Below, in pieces: positions 1,036 to 48,455 of a stretch of 64,000 nucleotides of DNA. The position numbers and the translations under genes were made by a program. Under the pieces are notes generated by a model. That model did no database searches. It was not told the origin of the DNA and worked only from the letters and a program-made list of their open reading frames with translations. The DNA comes from Paenibacillus lactis (GTDB lineage: Bacteria; Bacillota; Bacilli; Paenibacillales; Paenibacillaceae). Where the stretch lies: contig NZ_JAGGKI010000002.1 in assembly GCF_017873605.1 (NCBI RefSeq), positions 372,001-436,000 of the forward strand, read 5' to 3'. The number at the start of each line of letters is the position of its first letter. The first letter of the stretch is position 1.

Positions 1036-1542
1036 ATGAAATCAACCACGAAGCGAACACGGCGGACCCTCTTTCTTGCGGCGGGGCTGCTCCTCGCAGC
1101 CGCCTTGCTCTATCTGCTGTATCTCCGCCCCACACCGATTAAGACGGATTTCTTTACGACGGTCGACAACGAGCATACGATCATCTTCGAGGCGGTGAAC
1201 GAAGGGATTGCGGACGTGCAGCTGCTGGACGTGCTCGTCAACGGCGGACACCGGCCGGTTAAGGCAGAGCTTGGCGTGAGCTACTCGCTGCACCTTGTCG
1301 GCGGCTCCAACCTGGAGGGCAATCCCGATATCGCGTTTGTCGGGCTCGGGGACATGCCCCTCCATCCGGACCTCTCCCCGGAAGACAAGCAGGCCGCGCT
1401 GAACCAAAGCCCCCGCATCCCGCTGAATTATGGGATACGCCTACTCCACGATGAGCCGATCCGGGCAGTCGAGCTGAAATATCGATACCTGGGGCTGACC
1501 TTCAAGAGGAATATCTCGATGGGGCGTTTTTTTCAAGAATAG
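1036..1542 (+). CDS. Membrane-anchored hypothetical protein
   Basis: A 168-residue protein not recognised as a named family. A basic N-terminus (KRTRR) precedes one hydrophobic segment at about residues 12-30, followed by a roughly 135-residue soluble part rich in beta-prone stretches. This fits a signal-anchored protein with an extracytoplasmic domain. It follows the APH-family gene by 22 nt and is likely in the same transcript. The ribosome site is weak (AGGA about 13 nt upstream). No catalytic motif is evident. Confidence 0.7.
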   Translation: MKSTTKRTRRTLFLAAGLLLAAALLYLLYLRPTPIKTDFFTTVDNEHTIIFEAVNEGIADVQLLDVLVNGGHRPVKAELGVSYSLHLVGGSNLEGNPDIAFVGLGDMPLHPDLSPEDKQAALNQSPRIPLNYGIRLLHDEPIRAVELKYRYLGLTFKRNISMGRFFQE

Positions 1543-1546
1543 CGTG

Positions 1547-2098
1547 TTAGTGGACAACTGACAGAAAGGCTGAGGGCAGGGCGGTCTTAATGTCCTGTTC
1601 CCATTTCGCATTGGCTGCCTCGTCCAAGCTTTCCCGGTGCCAGTATAAAATCAGGACGTTCGCAAGCTCATGTTCATTCGGGACCTGCATATTATACACA
1701 TCCTTCTGCTTATGGAAATCAGCCTGGCCTTGGATGCGTTCTTCTTCCGTATCAAAAATGTACACCGAAATTCGCTCCTCGATGCCTGAGCCTTCCGGCT
1801 GGTTCTCATCCAGTGCATACATCATGGCTTGCACGCCACTTAGCACCCAGTCCGGGCTGATGTGCTTGGAGCGGAGGTCGATCCCTTGCCCCTTCAATGC
1901 TTCTTCCACATCCTCAAGCGTAAACCGTACCTCAGTGGCCTCCCCCGCGGCGGATGAGTCCATCGGGTTATCAGCCTGAGCCCGCCCTTCGGTTTCCTGC
2001 TTCGTAACAGGCCCCCTCGATTCCGCCTGGAAGCATCCTGCCAATGCGAATAGGGCAACCCATAGAAGGGTAAGCATCTTCAACGCTTTCAAAATCAT
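1547..2098 (-). CDS. Hypothetical lipoprotein
   Basis: A 183-residue secreted lipoprotein. The N-terminal hydrophobic segment ends in a lipobox LAGC, with the lipidated Cys at residue 22. A polar, low-complexity linker follows to about residue 55, then a globular domain with no recognised family. An AAAGGGG ribosome site precedes the ATG. It converges on the preceding gene with only 4 nt between the two stops, so read-through in either direction would make antisense RNA. Function unknown. Confidence 0.75.
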   Translation of the reverse strand: MILKALKMLTLLWVALFALAGCFQAESRGPVTKQETEGRAQADNPMDSSAAGEATEVRFTLEDVEEALKGQGIDLRSKHISPDWVLSGVQAMMYALDENQPEGSGIEERISVYIFDTEEERIQGQADFHKQKDVYNMQVPNEHELANVLILYWHRESLDEAANAKWEQDIKTALPSAFLSVVH

Positions 2099-40686: not shown

Positions 40687-43005
40687 TTACTGGCCGGTGT
40701 CGGCAATGACCAGCACATCCATATGCCTGGCCCGTCTCAGCAATTGCTTCACAAACCGCATTTGGGAGGAGCCAGGGAACCCTTTGCCCGGCGGCTGAGC
40801 AATAATAAGCTGGGTAGCCTTCACTTCATCAGCCGCCGCGATCAGAAGCGCAGGCAAGTCGTACGCTTGCTTTCCCTGCAGCTCCAGCGGACGAAAAATC
40901 CCCCCAAGCCGCTCCGTCATCGCCTGAAATGGATCCCTTCGTGCCGGCATGGACAGCTTGCCGTCTTCAGATCTATCCGGCAGCGGCGTTACATACCAGG
41001 CCGCCTTCAGCCGGTAGGCGATTCGAAAGCCGCGGCGAATGATTCGCTCCGACTCGGGACCGCTGCCGACGAGAACATAGATCACTTCCTCCCGTCGCCA
41101 CGGTCCCCGCAGCGAGGCGCTTCGCTCAAGGGATTCCAACCGCTCATCCACGTCGTCGGCGATTTCCCTTAGCGCTAGTTCCCGCAGCGCAATCAGGTTT
41201 CCGGTCTTGAAGAAGGAGCCGAGCGCTTGCTGAATGTTCTCGGACGCATAGATTTTGCCCTCCCGCATCCTCTGCTGCAGGGTCTCGGGGGTGACGTCGA
41301 TCAGTTGAACCTCGTCAGCCAGCTGCAGAATGCGATCAGGCACAGTTTCCCTGACGCGGACGCCGGTAACCTGCAGGACCGCATCGTTCAGGCTCTCCAG
41401 ATGCTGCACATTCACGGTCGTAATGACGGAGATTCCGGCAGACAAGATATCAAGCACATCCTCATACCGCTTTTTGTTCCGGCTGCCGGGCACATTCGTA
41501 TGGGCCAGCTCGTCGACCAGCACGACATCGGGCTTTCGCCGCAGGATCTCGTCGGTATCCATCTCTTCCAATCGCGTCCCGCGGTATTGCTTCGTCTTCC
41601 GCGGCATTACTTCCAGCTCGCCAACTTGAGATTGGGTTTCGGCGCGGCCGTGGGTCTCGAGGAGACCGACGATCACGTCCAGACCTTTTCGGCGCAGGTC
41701 GCCGCCTTCCCGCAGCATCGCATACGTTTTTCCAACGCCGGGGGCCGCGCCGATATACATCTTGAACCGCCCCCGCTTTGCCTGCTCGATCCGCTCATCG
41801 AGCTCGGTCCCGCTAAGCCGTTGAAACGCCCCTGCCCTCGGCGGATTCGGTTGAATCCGGGCGGGAATGATGCGCTCGCCGTTATTGGCTGTCCGGTCAG
41901 CCACCACGAGCAGGTCCACCCCTCGCATTTGCCGGAGCAGATCATGAATGACCGAGCCCTGCCACAGCTCTTGACTTCGGGTCTGCTTCGAATGTCCCAG
42001 CACGATCCGGGTGACATGCCGATCCAGTGCATACGTCAGGATCGCTCCTGCGAGTTTGCGCCGGGAGCGTAACGGAAGCTCCTCCAGGGTCGCTCCGATT
42101 CGCTCTGCCAGCTTCTGAAGGGAACTTCTGAAGGCGGCTTGCTCCTTCCCGAGCGTCGATCCGGGCTTCACGAACGTGACGACGAGCAGCTCGCCGTTCA
42201 GCCGCTTGGCAATCTGCTGGCCGCGACGCATATAGATGGATCCGTTCCAATGATACTGCGCTGCGACCAGGATCCGCTCGGCGGCGCCGGAAGGGCCTGT
42301 CAACCCACGCTCCCTCCGATGCCGCTCCAGCGAGCTGTTAACGCCCTCCGCTACCAGCCGAAGGGTAAGCTCTCTAAGCACGGCCAGATTGCCCCGCTCC
42401 CAAGCATCGCCGCCGGCAAGCAGACCGCTTTGCACCCGCTCCAGCATCGTCTCGGGCGTAACGTCGATCAGTACCACTTCGTCGGCGAACTCCAGCGTAT
42501 CCGCAGGCAGCGAATAACCGGCCGTGACGCCCGTCAATCTGCTCGCGATATCGCCTACGTCCTTCAGCTCATAAGCATTGATCGTCGTAATAACGCTGAT
42601 GCCGTGGCTAAGAAGAAAACGGATATCCTCTAGCCGGGTCTCGAACCTGGCTCCCTGGCGGTTCCGGTGCGCCAGACCGTCTACCAGCAGCACCTCCGGA
42701 TTCCGCCGCAGCAGCCGTTCCAGATCCAGGTCCTTACGCTCATTCCCGCTTTCGAACCAGTGGATGCTGGACACCCGCTCCAACTCCCGGGCCTGCTCCA
42801 CCGTATCAGGCCTCTGCATCGTTGATACGGCGGAGATGACAACATCGATCCCCTGCCGTTTCAGGCTCTGGCCTTCGCGGAGCATGTGATAGGTTTTGCC
42901 GGACCCGCTTACAGCTCCGATATAGACCTTGAGACGTCCTTGCCTCAGCTTTAAGATCGATCGCAGGATTTCCTCCGGCGATTTTCTTCGGTAGGGCTCA
43001 GTCAA
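40687..43005 (-). CDS. Tandem KdpD-type sensor domains without histidine kinase
   Basis: A 772-residue cytosolic protein made of two copies of the KdpD N-terminal module, each with a P-loop sensor domain followed by a USP domain. Copy 1 covers about 1-372 and copy 2 about 400-772. Copy 2 keeps GAAPGVGKT (419-427) and VDELAHTN; copy 1 has GAVSGSGKT (30-38) and a changed VDGLAHRN. There are no KdpD membrane segments, dimerisation His or ATPase domain. Its start overlaps the kdpC stop by 4 nt. In S. aureus the KdpD USP domain binds c-di-AMP, so a c-di-AMP-sensing role is plausible; it cannot be a sensor kinase itself. Confidence 0.92.
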   Translation of the reverse strand: MTEPYRRKSPEEILRSILKLRQGRLKVYIGAVSGSGKTYHMLREGQSLKRQGIDVVISAVSTMQRPDTVEQARELERVSSIHWFESGNERKDLDLERLLRRNPEVLLVDGLAHRNRQGARFETRLEDIRFLLSHGISVITTINAYELKDVGDIASRLTGVTAGYSLPADTLEFADEVVLIDVTPETMLERVQSGLLAGGDAWERGNLAVLRELTLRLVAEGVNSSLERHRRERGLTGPSGAAERILVAAQYHWNGSIYMRRGQQIAKRLNGELLVVTFVKPGSTLGKEQAAFRSSLQKLAERIGATLEELPLRSRRKLAGAILTYALDRHVTRIVLGHSKQTRSQELWQGSVIHDLLRQMRGVDLLVVADRTANNGERIIPARIQPNPPRAGAFQRLSGTELDERIEQAKRGRFKMYIGAAPGVGKTYAMLREGGDLRRKGLDVIVGLLETHGRAETQSQVGELEVMPRKTKQYRGTRLEEMDTDEILRRKPDVVLVDELAHTNVPGSRNKKRYEDVLDILSAGISVITTVNVQHLESLNDAVLQVTGVRVRETVPDRILQLADEVQLIDVTPETLQQRMREGKIYASENIQQALGSFFKTGNLIALRELALREIADDVDERLESLERSASLRGPWRREEVIYVLVGSGPESERIIRRGFRIAYRLKAAWYVTPLPDRSEDGKLSMPARRDPFQAMTERLGGIFRPLELQGKQAYDLPALLIAAADEVKATQLIIAQPPGKGFPGSSQMRFVKQLLRRARHMDVLVIADTGQ

Positions 43006-43634
43006 TGTTCCAAAAGCTCTTGCAGCGCCAGATTCAGCTTGAGCACATTGACACGGGGCTCGCCAAACACGCCGAAATCCCGCCCTTCCGTATGCTCCTT
43101 CACCAGTCGTTTCAACTCCGCTTCGGCAATTCCCGTCCGCTCGCTGACGCGCGGAATTTGAACTTCAGCCGATTTCGGCGTGATATGAGGGTCTAGTCCC
43201 GAGCCCGAGTTCGTGACGAGATCGATCGGAAGCTCTTGGACGGGAACGTTCGGGTTGTTCTTCTTCCACGCCTCGATCTCAGCCTTGGTCCGCTCCAGCA
43301 TTTCCGGGTTTGACGGGGCATAGTTGTTGCTGCCGGATCCCGCCCCGTTATATTCGATGCTGGATAACCTGCCGTGGAAATATTTCGGATCCGGGAAGCT
43401 CTGACCGATCAATTCCGAGCCCACCACATTGCCGCTTCGATCCTCGATCAAGCTGCCATTGGCCTGCTTCGGCATCAGCAGCTGCGCGGCGCCTGTCGTT
43501 ACGAGCGGGTACAGTAAGCCGCACAGAACAATAAAGACAAGGCTCGTTCTCACCGCAATCCCGACCGGAACGCGGGTCGCCTCGGTTTGAGCGGAAACAC
43601 GTCCAAAGGCTTTTTGCACAGGATGCTTCATCAT
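43002..43634 (-). CDS. kdpC: K(+)-transporting ATPase subunit C
   Basis: A 210-residue subunit that assembles KdpB with KdpA. One N-terminal membrane helix (about 28-50; VFIVLCGLLYPLVTTG) is followed by the outward domain with GQSFPDPKYFHGRLS, NYAPSNPEM, DLVTNSGSGLDPHI and the closing RVNVLKLNLAL. The start at 43634 has AAGGGATC upstream; an open extension to 43736 has no ribosome site and would overlap kdpB. Spacing to kdpB is 92 bp. Confidence 0.93.
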   Translation of the reverse strand: MMKHPVQKAFGRVSAQTEATRVPVGIAVRTSLVFIVLCGLLYPLVTTGAAQLLMPKQANGSLIEDRSGNVVGSELIGQSFPDPKYFHGRLSSIEYNGAGSGSNNYAPSNPEMLERTKAEIEAWKKNNPNVPVQELPIDLVTNSGSGLDPHITPKSAEVQIPRVSERTGIAEAELKRLVKEHTEGRDFGVFGEPRVNVLKLNLALQELLEH

Positions 43635-43726
43635 GGTTCTTCGATCCCTTCTGATTAGGTTCATCGCGATATTGCGACCGGCGGGCAAACTCTTCATCCC
43701 TTGATAGGACCACCAAGACGCTCGCC

Positions 43727-45760
43727 TTAAATCCATAGATGGACAATCATATCTATCAGCTTGATGCCGACGAACGGGACGATAACCCCGCCCAATCCGT
43801 AGACCAGCACATTGCGCTGCAGCAGCTTGGATGAGCTCATCGGCTTGTAGGACACGCCCTTCATCGCAAGCGGAATCAGCACTGGTATGATGATCGCATT
43901 GAAAATCAGCTCCGATAAAATCGCCGACATCGGGGAGCCGAGCCCCATAACATTAAGTGCGCCCATGCTTGGGATAGCCGCTGTGAACATGGCCGGAATA
44001 ATTGCGAAATATTTGGCCACGTCATTAGCCACGCTGAACGTGGTCAAGGCACCGCGCGTCATCAGCAGCTGCTTGCCAATCGCAACCACCTCGATGATTT
44101 TCGACGGATCGGAATCGAGATCCACCATGTTGGCCGCTTCCTTCGCGGCAACCGTGCCGCTGTTCATGGCGAGGCCAACATCGGCCTGCGCCAGCGCCGG
44201 AGCGTCGTTCGTCCCGTCGCCGGTCATGGCAACCAGCTTGCCCTCCGCCTGCTCCCGTCGGATGACCGCAATCTTATCCTCCGGTTTGCTCTCCGCTATG
44301 AAATCATCGACGCCCGCCTCGCGGGCGATCGTCGCTGCGGTCAACGGATTGTCGCCGGTGCACATAATCGTCTTGATGCCCATCCGGCGCAGCTGCTCGA
44401 ACCGCTCCTTCATGCCCGGCTTCACCGTATCCTTAAGATAGATCAAGCCGTAGAGCCGGTCGTCGACGGCGACAGCCAGCGGCGTGCCGCCCTCGGTGGC
44501 GATAGCATCGCTGCTTGGGATCAGATCTGCGGGGATTTCTCCTCCTTGTGCCTGCACCCAGGCTTTCACCGCATCCACCGCTCCCTTACGAACCTTCCGG
44601 CCATCCTTCAGGTCCATGCCGCTCATCCGCGTCTCGGCCTTGAATTCAATGCACTCGCCGCCGGACGCCGTCTCTTCATCGAAGGCATACCCTTCCCTCT
44701 TCATCAGCTCCAGCACGGAACGGCCCTCGGGCGTCTCATCCAGCAGGGAGCTGACGGCCGCCCACTGGGCAACGGAAGCCAGCGGTTCGCCGCCCACCGG
44801 GATGAACCGGCTAGCCATCCGGTTCCCGAATGTGATCGTCCCTGTCTTATCGAGAATCATCGTGTTGATATCTCCGGCCGCCTCCACCGCCTTCCCCGAC
44901 ATTGCCAGCACATTGAACCGGGTGACCCGGTCCATCCCCGCAATGCCGATCGCCGACAGCAGGCCGCCGATCGTCGTCGGAATGAGGCAAACAAGCAGCG
45001 AAATGAGCACGGGAACCGACAGCTCGATGCCTAGATACTTCGCAATCGGCGCCAGTGTCACCACCACGATCAGGAAGATGAGCGTCAGTACCGTCAGAAG
45101 CGTGTTCAGCGCAATTTCGTTAGGCGTCTTCTGACGGGAGGCTCCTTCAACAAGCGAGATCATTCGGTCGAGAAACGATTCTCCCGGATCGCTCGTAATC
45201 CGAATTTTGATCGTATCGCTGACCACGCGGGTGCCCCCGGTAACCGAGCTGAAGTCGCCGCCGGCCTCTTTGATGACCGGCGCCGATTCGCCAGTAATGG
45301 CCGATTCGTCGACGGATGCCAATCCCGCGATGACCTCGCCGTCGCCGGGTATCATTTCGCCTTGGGACACGATGACGATATCCCCTTTGCGCAGCTCGGT
45401 CGACGGAACCGCCGTGACGCCGCCTCCTTCCGTTACTTTATTGGCCGTCATCTCCTTCTTGGACTGCTTCAGGGAATCGGCCTGCGCTTTGCCGCGCCCT
45501 TCCGCCATCGCCTCCGCGAAATTCGCGAACAGCAGCGTAAAGAGCAGGATCAGGAACACGGTCAGATTGAAGCCGATGCTGCTCTCCGTCCCGAAATAGG
45601 ACGGAAACAGCATCATCAGCAGCACCACGATCGTTCCGGCCTCCACCACGAACATGACCGGATTTTTCAGCATCAATACAGGATTCAGCTTCACAACGCT
45701 GTCCTTCAGCGCCTGACCGACCATCGCTTTGGTCATTAAACGTTGTTTGGGATTATTCAT
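43727..45760 (-). CDS. kdpB: K(+)-transporting P-type ATPase subunit B
   Basis: A 677-residue P-type ATPase, the energising subunit of high-affinity potassium uptake. The actuator TGES (156-159) and the phosphorylation motif DKTGT with D304 are intact, as are the hinge MVTGDG-equivalent [13 protein letters not shown] and the membrane motif [19 protein letters not shown] carries the serine whose phosphorylation inhibits the E. coli pump. It starts 23 nt after kdpA. Confidence 0.97.
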
Positions 45761-45783: not shown

Positions 45784-47463
45784 TTAACGGATCGTAAGAT
45801 GCTCGGCAACCGGCCCGAGAACCAGTACAGGCAAAAAGGTCAGCGCGCCGATAATCAGCACGACGGCAATCAGGATGCCGGCGAACAGTCCGTTATCGGT
45901 CCGGAACGTTCCCGGCGTCTCCGGCACCCGCTGCTTCCGCGACAGCGATCCGCCGACCGCCAGCAATGCGATCATCGAAATATAACGGCCCAGCAGCATG
46001 ACCAGTCCGGTTGTCACGTTCCAAAACGGCGTGTTATCGGCAAGCCCTTCAAACCCGGACCCGTTGTTCGCTGCCGAAGACGTATACTCATACAACACCT
46101 GGGAGATGCCGTGGAACCCTGCGTTCGTAATGCCTGATTGACCCGCATTCGTCATCAACGCGAGCGCTGTCGGTGCCAGGATGATGAACGGGTGCACCAG
46201 GATCACGACGGCGATCAGCTTCATTTCCTTCGCTTCGATCTTCCTGCCAAGAAATTCGGGTGTTCGTCCGACCATCAGCCCGGCCAGGAATACGGCCAGA
46301 ATCGCGTACATGAGCATGTTCATCAAGCCGACGCCCTTCCCGCCGAAGACGGAATTAAGCATCATTAGCGCTAGCGGCGTGATGCCCCCAAGCGGGGTCA
46401 GGGTATCGTGCATGTTGTTGACCGATCCGGTCGTGGCCGCCGTCGTGACGGTCGTAAACAAGGAGGATTGCGGAATGCCGAAGCGGACCTCTTTGCCTTC
46501 CATGCTGCCTTGGGACGAATCAATCCCGAGCCGGTTCAGCGCTGGATTCCCGCTTGATTCGGCCGCATAGTTCAGGGATAGAAAACCGATGAACAGCGTC
46601 ATCATGACAGAGAACACGATCCAGCCCTGCTTGCGGCTCTTGGCGAACAATCCGAACGTATAGGGCAGGGCAGCCCCGAGGCTCCACATGCACAATATTT
46701 CGATCACGTTCGTCAACGGGGATGGATTCTCGAACGGATGCGCGGAATTGGCTCCCATATGGCCGCCTCCGTTCGTTCCCAAGTGCTTGATCGATTCAAG
46801 CGCGGCTACCGGGCCGACCGCAATCTGCTGCTCTGATCCCGAAAGGGTCGTTACGCTCATGGTCGGCTTTAACGTCTGCGGCACCTGCAGTGCCACCAGC
46901 AGCATGGCAATAAGGAAGGCCGCCGGGATAAACACCCGGGTCATGGCCTTCACGAAGTCTTCGAAGAAGTTGCCGACCGTAGCGCCTTTCGTCGTCACGG
47001 CCCGGATAAAGGCGATGGCAACGCACAGCCCGGTGGCGGCGGACGTGAACATCATCATCATGATCACGGCCATCTGGGAAAAGTAAGAGAGGCCCGACTC
47101 CCCGCTATAGTGCTGCAAGTTCGTATTGGTCATGAAGCTGATCATTGTATTGAGCGACAACGTCGACTCCATGTTCTCGATGCCGTTCGGATTCCACGGC
47201 AGCACCTGTTGAAAACGGAGGATGGCATACCCTGCTCCGACCAGGATGATATTGGTGAGCAGGAAGCTGAGCGCATAGCCCTTCCAGCTCATCCCCCTGC
47301 GTTCCTTGAGTCCGATGAGGGCAAATATCGGGCGTTCCGCCCAGGAGAACCATTTGTCCGTGCCGCCGGGTTCATTGCGAAACACGAGATAGAGGTAGGT
47401 TCCAAGCGGCTTGACGAGCAGCAGCAGAACCAGGATGACGATGGCGATTTGTACGATGCCCAT
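45784..47463 (-). CDS. kdpA: K(+)-transporting ATPase subunit A
   Basis: A 559-residue channel-like subunit with about ten membrane helices that selects potassium. Selectivity-loop motifs include [39 protein letters not shown] and [10 protein letters not shown]. coli has GGGFFNANS where this protein has GGGHMGANS, a variation I believe occurs in Bacillota. It follows kdpF by 31 nt. Length is normal. Confidence 0.97.
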
Positions 47464-47494: not shown

Positions 47495-47572
47495 CTAAAA
47501 TTTTTCCGGATGAATCAGCGCATAAACCAAATATAAAAATATCGCAGCGGTCAATATCAAAATCAGCGTCAT
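47495..47572 (-). CDS. kdpF: K(+)-transporting ATPase subunit F
   Basis: A 25-residue single-helix peptide that stabilises the Kdp complex. It starts MTLILILTAAIFLYLVYALI and ends HPEKF, the typical KdpF closing of L(I/L)xPExF. GGAGGGTGA lies upstream. Its ATG overlaps the TGA of the preceding small gene (ATGA), so it is translationally coupled to it. Position just before kdpA is canonical. Confidence 0.93.
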   Translation of the reverse strand: MTLILILTAAIFLYLVYALIHPEKF

Positions 47573-47679
47573 GGCCTGTCACCCTCCGATTCTTGAATAA
47601 CGCGGCCGCACCAGCTTATGAACAGCCGGAACAGCCCGTAGGCTGCACCTAGCAGAAGCAGCATATATACATCCTGCAT
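47569..47679 (-). CDS. 36-residue membrane peptide coupled to kdpF
   Basis: A 36-residue frame with a very good ribosome site (AAGGAGGG, 6 nt before the ATG). It begins MQDVYMLLLLGAAYGLFRLF, one probable membrane helix, and ends in a polar VIQESEGDRP tail. Its stop overlaps the kdpF start, so the two are translated together. I do not know a named family for it. The placement suggests an accessory subunit of the potassium pump or a coupling leader. Confidence 0.75.
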   Translation of the reverse strand: MQDVYMLLLLGAAYGLFRLFISWCGRVIQESEGDRP

Positions 47680-47727
47680 TGTTATCCCTCCTTGGCGGTA
47701 AGCCGTAAAAACAGCTCTTTCCGGTAG

Positions 47728-48138
47728 CTAGTCTAAAAGCGCGGCGATCAGGAAATCGACGCGGTCATGATTCGTATGCAGCACGACATCCGCGCCAAGC
47801 CCTCTGTAAATCAGTCTCGGATTGCCGGAATTTGTAATAACATAGATCGAAGCCGAGGTCCATGTCCGGCATATTCGCAAGTAGCGGCAGCAGAGGTTCA
47901 AACTGTTCTCGAACAGAAACACCTTGCCGATCGGCCGTTCGGGAAGCACCCAGGTCTGCTCGTCTCTCGTGTCGATCATGATGACATCCTTGCATCCGAG
48001 CCTGCTCGCCCTCTCCCCCTCTGCAGGGTTGTTTGCCAGAACGGCGAACGGGATCTCCCTTAAGAGCAATTGGCGGATGAATGCCTCTCCGGCCTTGGTC
48101 GGCGCGGATATCAGAATCGTGTCTTGCTGTTTTTCCAT
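47728..48138 (-). CDS. Rossmann-like hypothetical protein heading the kdp operon
   Basis: A 136-residue cytosolic protein resembling the nucleotide-binding core of TrkA-N/RCK regulators. ILISAPTKAGEAFIRQLL would be the first strand-loop-helix, although the GxGxxG glycines are mostly missing; DVIMIDTRDEQTW and SIYVITNSGNPRLIYRGLGADVV follow. RCK-type proteins control potassium channels and transporters. GGAGGAG precedes the ATG. It is the first gene after the c-di-AMP riboswitch and its terminator and 48 bp before the small membrane peptide. The family assignment is tentative. Confidence 0.7.
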   Translation of the reverse strand: MEKQQDTILISAPTKAGEAFIRQLLLREIPFAVLANNPAEGERASRLGCKDVIMIDTRDEQTWVLPERPIGKVFLFENSLNLCCRYLRICRTWTSASIYVITNSGNPRLIYRGLGADVVLHTNHDRVDFLIAALLD

Positions 48139-48255: not shown

Positions 48256-48455
48256 GTCACGACAATCGTTGCCTCTCTCGATACGCTTACGAGGTTAGCT
48301 GACGGATTCGGGCGTGAGAGTCGCCCTACCCATAGACCGTTATCTTGTCTATGGGATTCACCCCGGAGAGAACGCGCGAAATCGCGTCTCCCGATTGGTT
48401 CCCCCGCTCCTTTTTCATTCAAGGACTCAGCGAAAATGAATCTAGCGAGCTGCAT
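48256..48455 (-). ncRNA. c-di-AMP (ydaO/yuaA) riboswitch
   Basis: On the minus strand the hallmark blocks of the ydaO aptamer follow in order: TTTTCGCTGAGTCC, AAAGGAGCGGGGGAACCAA, CCGGGGTGAATCC, GGGCGACTCTCACGCCCGAA and TCCGTCAGCTAACCTCGTAA. Aptamers of this class bind cyclic di-AMP and usually turn genes off when it is high. The terminator downstream fits an OFF switch. Since c-di-AMP rises with potassium, kdp would be expressed only at low potassium. Edges are approximate. Confidence 0.95.

Follow-up and report, generated by a model that had tools for sequence, protein, structure and literature searches.

A conserved gene for a KdpZ-like one-helix peptide ahead of kdpF in Paenibacillus lactis and its putative place in the Kdp potassium pump

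The 36-codon open reading frame that precedes kdpF in the kdp operon of Paenibacillus lactis is a real conserved gene, and the amino acids of its product are under selection. The product, found in the window (the whole stretch of 64,000 nucleotides analysed), appears to be a KdpZ-like membrane peptide, and we regard it as rather probable that it is translated as a single-helix protein of the KdpZ kind and that, beside KdpF, KdpA and KdpB, it serves KdpFABC, the textbook potassium pump known mostly from E. coli, as a small accessory subunit or stabiliser.

The gene (47569-47679, minus strand) encodes a product of 36 amino acids, MQDVYMLLLLGAAYGLFRLFISWCGRVIQESEGDRP, and shares the bases ATGA with kdpF (47495-47572, minus strand). 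According to the sequence and the scan, its Shine-Dalgarno sequence AAGGAGG (47687-47693, minus strand) lies 7 nt 5' of the ATG, while a GGAGG within the peptide gene (47583-47587, minus strand), 10 nt 5' of the kdpF start, is the probable Shine-Dalgarno sequence of kdpF. As to the location of the frame, its 36 codons, the strong ribosome site and the ATGA overlap, the sequence, the ORF list and the scan fully agree with the preliminary description, and the one hydrophobic helix claimed there corresponds to the single helix predicted by AlphaFold2 from the single sequence for residues 2-32 (mean pLDDT 91). No Pfam or NCBIfam model scored above its cut-off for the window peptide or for nine relatives, PHROGs gave no match to the window peptide, and no PDB chain matched the family profile at E <= 1. 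The PID-CTERM sorting signal was rejected for the window peptide (NCBIfam NF046080, 12.7 bits against a cut-off of 26); IPTL-CTERM for one relative of the WA type described below (16.9 bits, under the cut-off of 20.5) and BcsF for a Rhizobium peptide (13.9 bits, under the cut-off of 23) scored too low as well.

Among 100 genomes of the genus, 91 possess kdpA. Of the 95 distinct genus loci examined, three (L239, L240, L243) have a divergent KdpF that ends in GDGK, and the KdpF of the other 92 is of the usual Pro type. A membrane ORF of 20-48 codons whose end falls within -35 to +30 nt of the kdpF start is present at 90 of 94 loci, which correspond to 88 of 92 distinct ones after removal of the repeats L246 and L247, while only 48 of 1880 dinucleotide-shuffled upstream stretches (2.6%) pass the same rule. 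Frameshifts or stops in close relatives, which according to the preliminary description would speak against a gene, did not refute it: the frame is open in the same 88 loci, and the exceptions are L028, where the gene is absent, and L143, L144 and L150, where an in-frame deletion has removed about 17 helix codons and left the start, the tail, the frame and the kdpF overlap in place. The peptide can thus be dispensable, its helix being lost in three similar genomes and the gene missing at L028. At the three GDGK-type loci no peptide was seen, and two genomes that hold both kdp types (G018, G019) show it only at the Pro-type (PEKF) copy. A protein search of 295 genomes of the family gave matches at E <= 1 in 159 of them, from 13 of the 19 genera, the weak matches being not all real. 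In genus g7 of the same family, weak profile matches (E about 0.02-0.08) contain internal stops in six genomes (G135, G145, G164, G218, G225, G238); two loci of this genus that were read (L133, L134) encode the short form, which terminates ahead of kdpF, so that the stops appear to fall downstream of the point where this shorter peptide terminates.

Selection on the amino-acid sequence was evaluated with 148 loci that have an alignable core of 29 codons (127 distinct cores, identical ones being merged), from which 49 disjoint closest pairs of 75% identity or more were drawn; loci lacking a D-to-W spacing of 20 and pairs below 75% identity were left out of this set. In the frame of the peptide dN/dS is 0.173, against 1.29 and 1.73 in the other two frames, and the differences by codon position number 107, 67 and 285. 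Since the 3' end of the gene contains the GGAGG of kdpF, which would preserve Gly codons through selection on the RNA, a 22-codon core that ends before this motif was computed separately, and its dN/dS is 0.142 (bootstrap 0.112-0.175). In ten additional pairs, drawn half from Bacillota and half from other phyla, pN/pS is 0.21 in frame versus 1.54 and 1.69 in the other frames. Such frame-specific purifying selection is what characterises a translated gene. The question raised in the preliminary description, whether conservation here follows the RNA or the codons, is consequently answered in favour of the codons, and its 'likely real gene' is borne out both by this result and by the excess over chance in the genus; the same dN/dS pattern and the shuffle rate rule out a spurious ORF. 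That the frame is untranslated and owes its conservation to RNA or to chance has a virtually negligible likelihood: the last codons do overlap the Shine-Dalgarno sequence of kdpF, so that selection on the RNA may account for some of the Gly-rich tail, but the synonymous pattern is specific for the frame and the presence at 88 of 92 loci stands against the 2.6% of shuffled stretches.

Another explanation treats the gene as a leader ORF with an inert product, whose translation serves just to bring ribosomes to kdpF. The arrangement in Paenibacillus speaks in its favour, as the overlap between the peptide stop and the kdpF start measures 4 nt in 63 loci and 1 nt in 22 (85 of 88 in all, the remaining three having a gap of 2 nt), and the three genomes that lost the helix have retained frame and overlap. 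A pure leader role is nevertheless unlikely, given the strong selection on the amino acids, the own GGAGG of kdpF in the window, and the arrangement elsewhere: many relatives have no overlap with kdpF and are separated from it by some 10 to more than 40 nt instead, and the order is kdpF-Z-kdpA in Burkholderia arboris, B. stagnalis, Rhizobium mayense and a Rhodanobacter. A leader ORF would be expected to combine regular overlap or abutment with the lack of selection on its residues, and this combination was not found. From the four proteobacterial loci it also follows that the peptide stays with the operon when the gene order changes. As for the translational coupling to kdpF that had been claimed, the overlap on which it was based is present, and coupling in P. 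lactis may be deduced from it; as a general property of the family it does not hold, because of the gaps and of the location of the peptide 3' of kdpF in these four loci.

Outside the genus, the family was followed with profile A1, composed of 29 peptides, in all rows of which D3, M6, W23 and C24 are invariant. In a search of the class, 103 of 398 genomes reached E <= 0.1, with chance accounting for many of the weaker matches, and kdpA was present in 144 of a draw of 398 genomes of the same class; in all 21 loci of this search that were opened (L072-L092) kdpA lies directly 3' of the match. Sixty fetched loci, chosen so as to include those without a clear match, were read upstream of kdpA: 47 have a membrane peptide of about 27-40 codons followed by kdpF, two have the peptide and no recognised kdpF (L098, L121), three are the helix-deletion cases already mentioned, and eight, from families f22, f2, f5, f35 and f10, have no peptide (L093, L094, L111, L124-L128). 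In 40 more loci, mostly from other classes of the phylum, the peptide was found in 12 and not found in 27, most of the latter having a KdpF that ends in A-E-x-L or similar; the remaining one (L190) is without kdpA. Three types of the peptide can be distinguished, namely a long form with WC, a long form with WA and a short form whose end reads F/C-D/E-R/K; the residue pair is WC in 109 of the 127 distinct cores, WA in 16 and FC in two. In profile comparisons the Paenibacillus peptide (A1) scores 52.7 with the WA type and 46.4 with the short Bacillota type, a set of 22 rows including the ORF of Alicyclobacillus acidocaldarius (40 column shuffles gave at most 13.1). Judging by these profiles and by position, homologues precede kdpF in many families of Bacilli, including A. 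acidocaldarius, and in some Clostridia. Among the named relatives, the peptide is present on Bacillus badius pPM400, Niallia taxi pMEGANia, Listeria innocua pLI100 and a plasmid of Subdoligranulum variabile, and none was seen in the kdp locus of Staphylococcus epidermidis. The tables for the B. badius and L. innocua plasmids, incomplete by their own description, list no gene either for the peptide or for kdpF, and the peptide tends to go unannotated in kdp operons.

Named genome loci were ranked by likeness to a clostridial KdpA, and the best 80 of 580 were considered. The positional rule finds the peptide in 65 of these 80, two of these finds (L330, L331) being kdpF itself; reading adds ten loci (L274, L276, L283, L300, L303, L323, L330, L332, L338, L339), which brings the number to 73 of the best 80. 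No peptide was found in the other seven (L264, L282, L298, L302, L315, L317, L331), and in L282, L302 and L315 kdpF was likewise not recognised. Pseudomonadota, Chloroflexota and Bacteroidota with short forms are included in the same best 80 loci. In two Bacteroidota loci, L331 (Epilithonimonas) and L338 (Chryseobacterium), a further one-helix ORF, of 37-42 codons, separates kdpF from kdpA. Plasmid records with the peptide belong to Rhizobium, Sinorhizobium, Azospirillum, Acetobacter, Burkholderia, Mycetohabitans, Deinococcus and Arthrobacter. None was seen in E. coli 3-72, plasmids of Klebsiella and Duffyella, Moraxella, Enterococcus gilvus, Lactiplantibacillus and Halobacterium, nor in Picosynechococcus and Sphingobium, in which kdpF was not recognised either. 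The peptides of the cross-phylum alignment A6 were selected visually and by their position, a choice that favours likeness, and the Arthrobacter peptide was left out. On this basis the Bacillota short form scores 29.5 against the pooled Pseudomonadota, Deinococcota and Chloroflexota (at most 15.7 in 100 shuffles) and 22.1 against Bacteroidota (at most 16.7 in 100 shuffles); the two A6 groups score 17.3 against each other, and the WA type 13.6 against Bacteroidota. Kinship across the phyla is therefore likely as far as such profiles can tell, and less firm than that within Bacillota.

The peptide resembles KdpF (PF09604, TIGR02115) in being a one-helix peptide of similar size encoded in the same operon. 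It is, however, neither a duplicate nor a paralogue of KdpF: the window peptide has no match to either KdpF model at E <= 10, its family profile scores 12.9 (5% probability) against the KdpF profile, a score that shuffled profiles also attain (up to 17.1), and a true KdpF follows it. The KdpF control alignment (A4) used here gives alternative starts as an initial M; in addition, a single residue is altered in one of its rows, and one row carries an extra M. The presence of the peptide goes with the type of KdpF. After 24 loci without a recognised KdpF had been dropped from 325 distinct ones, 301 were left, and the peptide was detected in 244 of the 270 loci in which Pro stands four residues from the KdpF C-terminus, as compared with 5 of the 31 others; these counts ignore phylogeny and pool unevenly sampled taxa, and the detector yields false negatives as well as false positives. 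Of the 26 misses of the Pro type, at least 14 do have the peptide on reading (L023, L129, L131, L178, L184, L197, L207, L274, L303, L330, L332, L352, L358, L359), and of the five exceptions of the other type two look spurious (L164, L360) and three real (L118, L119, L354). An ORF reported by the same detector in Duffyella was judged spurious on reading.

In the window the operon runs on the minus strand in the order c-di-AMP riboswitch, 136-codon ORF, peptide gene, kdpF, kdpA, kdpB, kdpC and a gene for a 772-residue protein, the first two being an addition to the context given in the preliminary description. The aptamer is of the ydaO/yuaA type (48268-48442; RF00379, cmscan 96.2 bits, E 2.7e-22). 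KdpF has 25 residues and ends in HPEKF (PF09604 E 9.9e-9; TIGR02115 28.3 bits, cut-off 26.85), and kdpA (45784-47463) is recognised by TIGR00680 (694.9 bits) and PF03814 (773 bits); kdpB (43727-45760) was read by eye from its P-type ATPase motifs, and kdpC (43002-43736) from its ORF and position in the operon. The 136-codon ORF (47728-48138), which lies between the riboswitch and the peptide gene, has no match in Pfam, NCBIfam or PHROGs; its single-sequence model (pLDDT 65.6) is weakly Rossmann- or TrkA-N-like, with TrkA-N, KtrA and MthK chains matched at E about 1e-3 together with many other Rossmann folds, and a homologue occurs in at least 42 of 96 kdp loci of the genus (two repeats included) and in some other Bacilli. 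Going by this model, an RCK-like co-regulator of Kdp is possible. By eye, the 772-residue protein (40687-43005) is built of two halves that both resemble KdpD-N and both contain a Walker A-like motif, and a histidine kinase part was not seen in it; read in this way it would be a tandem version of the KdpD serine-kinase module. At one further locus (L139) two tandem c-di-AMP riboswitches (1141-1320 and 1394-1595, minus strand) stand 5' of one kdp operon. In Bacillus thuringiensis BMB171, according to PMC6488665, terminator and kdpF are 143 nt apart. The peptide is not a simple companion of the c-di-AMP riboswitch, as the fetched stretches of several peptide-bearing loci (e.g., L100, L106, L108, L134, L145, L195, L204) contain no such riboswitch, with the reservation that a distant one may lie beyond the stretch.

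These surroundings bear upon the main alternative to a subunit, namely that the peptide is, in the manner of AcrZ or MgtR, a regulator of the pump, of its inhibition by the KdpD-N serine kinase, or of its turnover; we give it a clearly smaller chance, in the order of one reading among several. A regulatory role is common among one-helix peptides. AcrZ and MgtR are both named in PMC9650054, and according to PMC11018627 KdpB is a phosphorylation target of KdpD-N, while a short KdpD responds to c-di-AMP. The KdpD-N-like protein encoded in the operon and the occasional loss of the peptide would fit modulation of this kind; nothing, however, ties the peptide to KdpD, and the loci in which it occurs with no riboswitch in the fetched stretch do not favour it.

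The accessory subunit is the simplest account because it covers at once the company of KdpF, the selection on helix residues, the persistence through changes of gene order and the co-variation with the C-terminus of KdpF. The selected helix residues include, in Paenibacillaceae, the N-terminal Asp and the nearly invariant Trp at the far end. In P. lactis the peptide would be made together with KdpF from a kdp transcript presumably controlled by c-di-AMP through the riboswitch; it would be inserted probably with the acidic N-terminus outside and the short charged tail in the cytosol, and would then bind beside KdpF, KdpA and KdpB as an accessory subunit or stabiliser of the pump. The 'extra small subunit' proposed earlier is thereby a plausible reading, the physical association being putative. 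Counted against it are the pumps of the E. coli lineage, which are devoid of the peptide, the fact that KdpFABC of E. coli works without it, the lack of a matching PDB chain, the loss of the helix or the gene in four loci of the genus, and the fact that the link to KdpF ignores phylogeny.

A more general proposal, which we put forward tentatively and hold to be somewhat on the doubtful side, is that in many bacteria the Kdp pump is KdpZFABC, with a fifth, one-helix subunit that occurs in at least five phyla and pairs with Pro-type KdpF; the E. coli, staphylococcal, enterococcal/lactobacillar and many clostridial lineages would be excluded from it. If this is true, KdpFABC as studied so far may be a reduced form of the complex, and the additional subunit would have been overlooked because the structures and the biochemistry come from E. 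coli, which is without the peptide, and because gene finders drop ORFs so short. In that case the assembly of the pump, its regulation by potassium and c-di-AMP and the function of KdpF would be worth re-examining where the peptide is present. For annotators it is a family to model, absent from the family libraries.

As to the identity of the peptide, a 2006 study of the A. acidocaldarius locus reportedly named the operon kdpZFABCN. In A. acidocaldarius 104-IA the ORF VEDVISIALFLAVFALLYVIHRSFDRS adjoins kdpF on its 5' side, that is, at the place of kdpZ, and belongs to the short type related to A1 by profile; the three rows of its family alone score 19.9 against A1 (60% probability), so the link between A1 and Alicyclobacillus leans on bridging families. 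The transcript of C. acetobutylicum is given as kdpZYABCXDE in the one relevant passage on kdpZ that the open literature searched contained (PMC5401905). Two Clostridium relatives (L281, L283) have the same gene order and a WC-type peptide, in two others (L298, L317) none was seen, and a third (L315) showed no recognisable peptide or kdpF. The window peptide likewise is encoded by a small gene directly 5' of kdpF and kdpA in a kdp operon. Because of its kinship, through the short form, with the A. acidocaldarius ORF and of these two operon names, it is most probably KdpZ and best called KdpZ-like; that the Alicyclobacillus and Clostridium ORFs are the kdpZ of their authors is our inference from place and name. 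To call the peptide unnamed, as had been done, was accordingly not quite right, and the kind is, as far as known, a known but uncharacterised one. In the same literature we did not find the breadth of the family reported, nor anything on a small protein of the Paenibacillus kdp operon or on a 'potassium ABC transporter ATPase' together with kdp; the passages on unannotated small proteins and sORFs seen there only name or cite KdpF.

The last of these terms is the automatic product name of WP_212667346.1, a KdpZ-like peptide of Mycetohabitans endofungorum (L354, 676-780) that, similarly to the window peptide, overlaps the annotated kdpF by 4 nt at the end of its 34 codons; the name is apparently a misnomer, as a peptide of 34 residues cannot be an ABC ATPase. 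With the small accessory subunits CydX and AcrZ the window peptide can be likened by kind: they are short one-helix proteins encoded with a membrane complex or acting on it, and gene finders easily miss them, while the association of the window peptide with its complex is putative. The closest counterpart is KdpZ of A. acidocaldarius and C. acetobutylicum, with which it shares the position as the first small kdp gene before kdpF and kdpA and the single hydrophobic helix, and to the A. acidocaldarius ORF it is further related through the profile similarity of the two families; the latter ORF has 27 codons and ends in FDRS, whereas the window peptide has 36 codons, WCGR and a longer tail.
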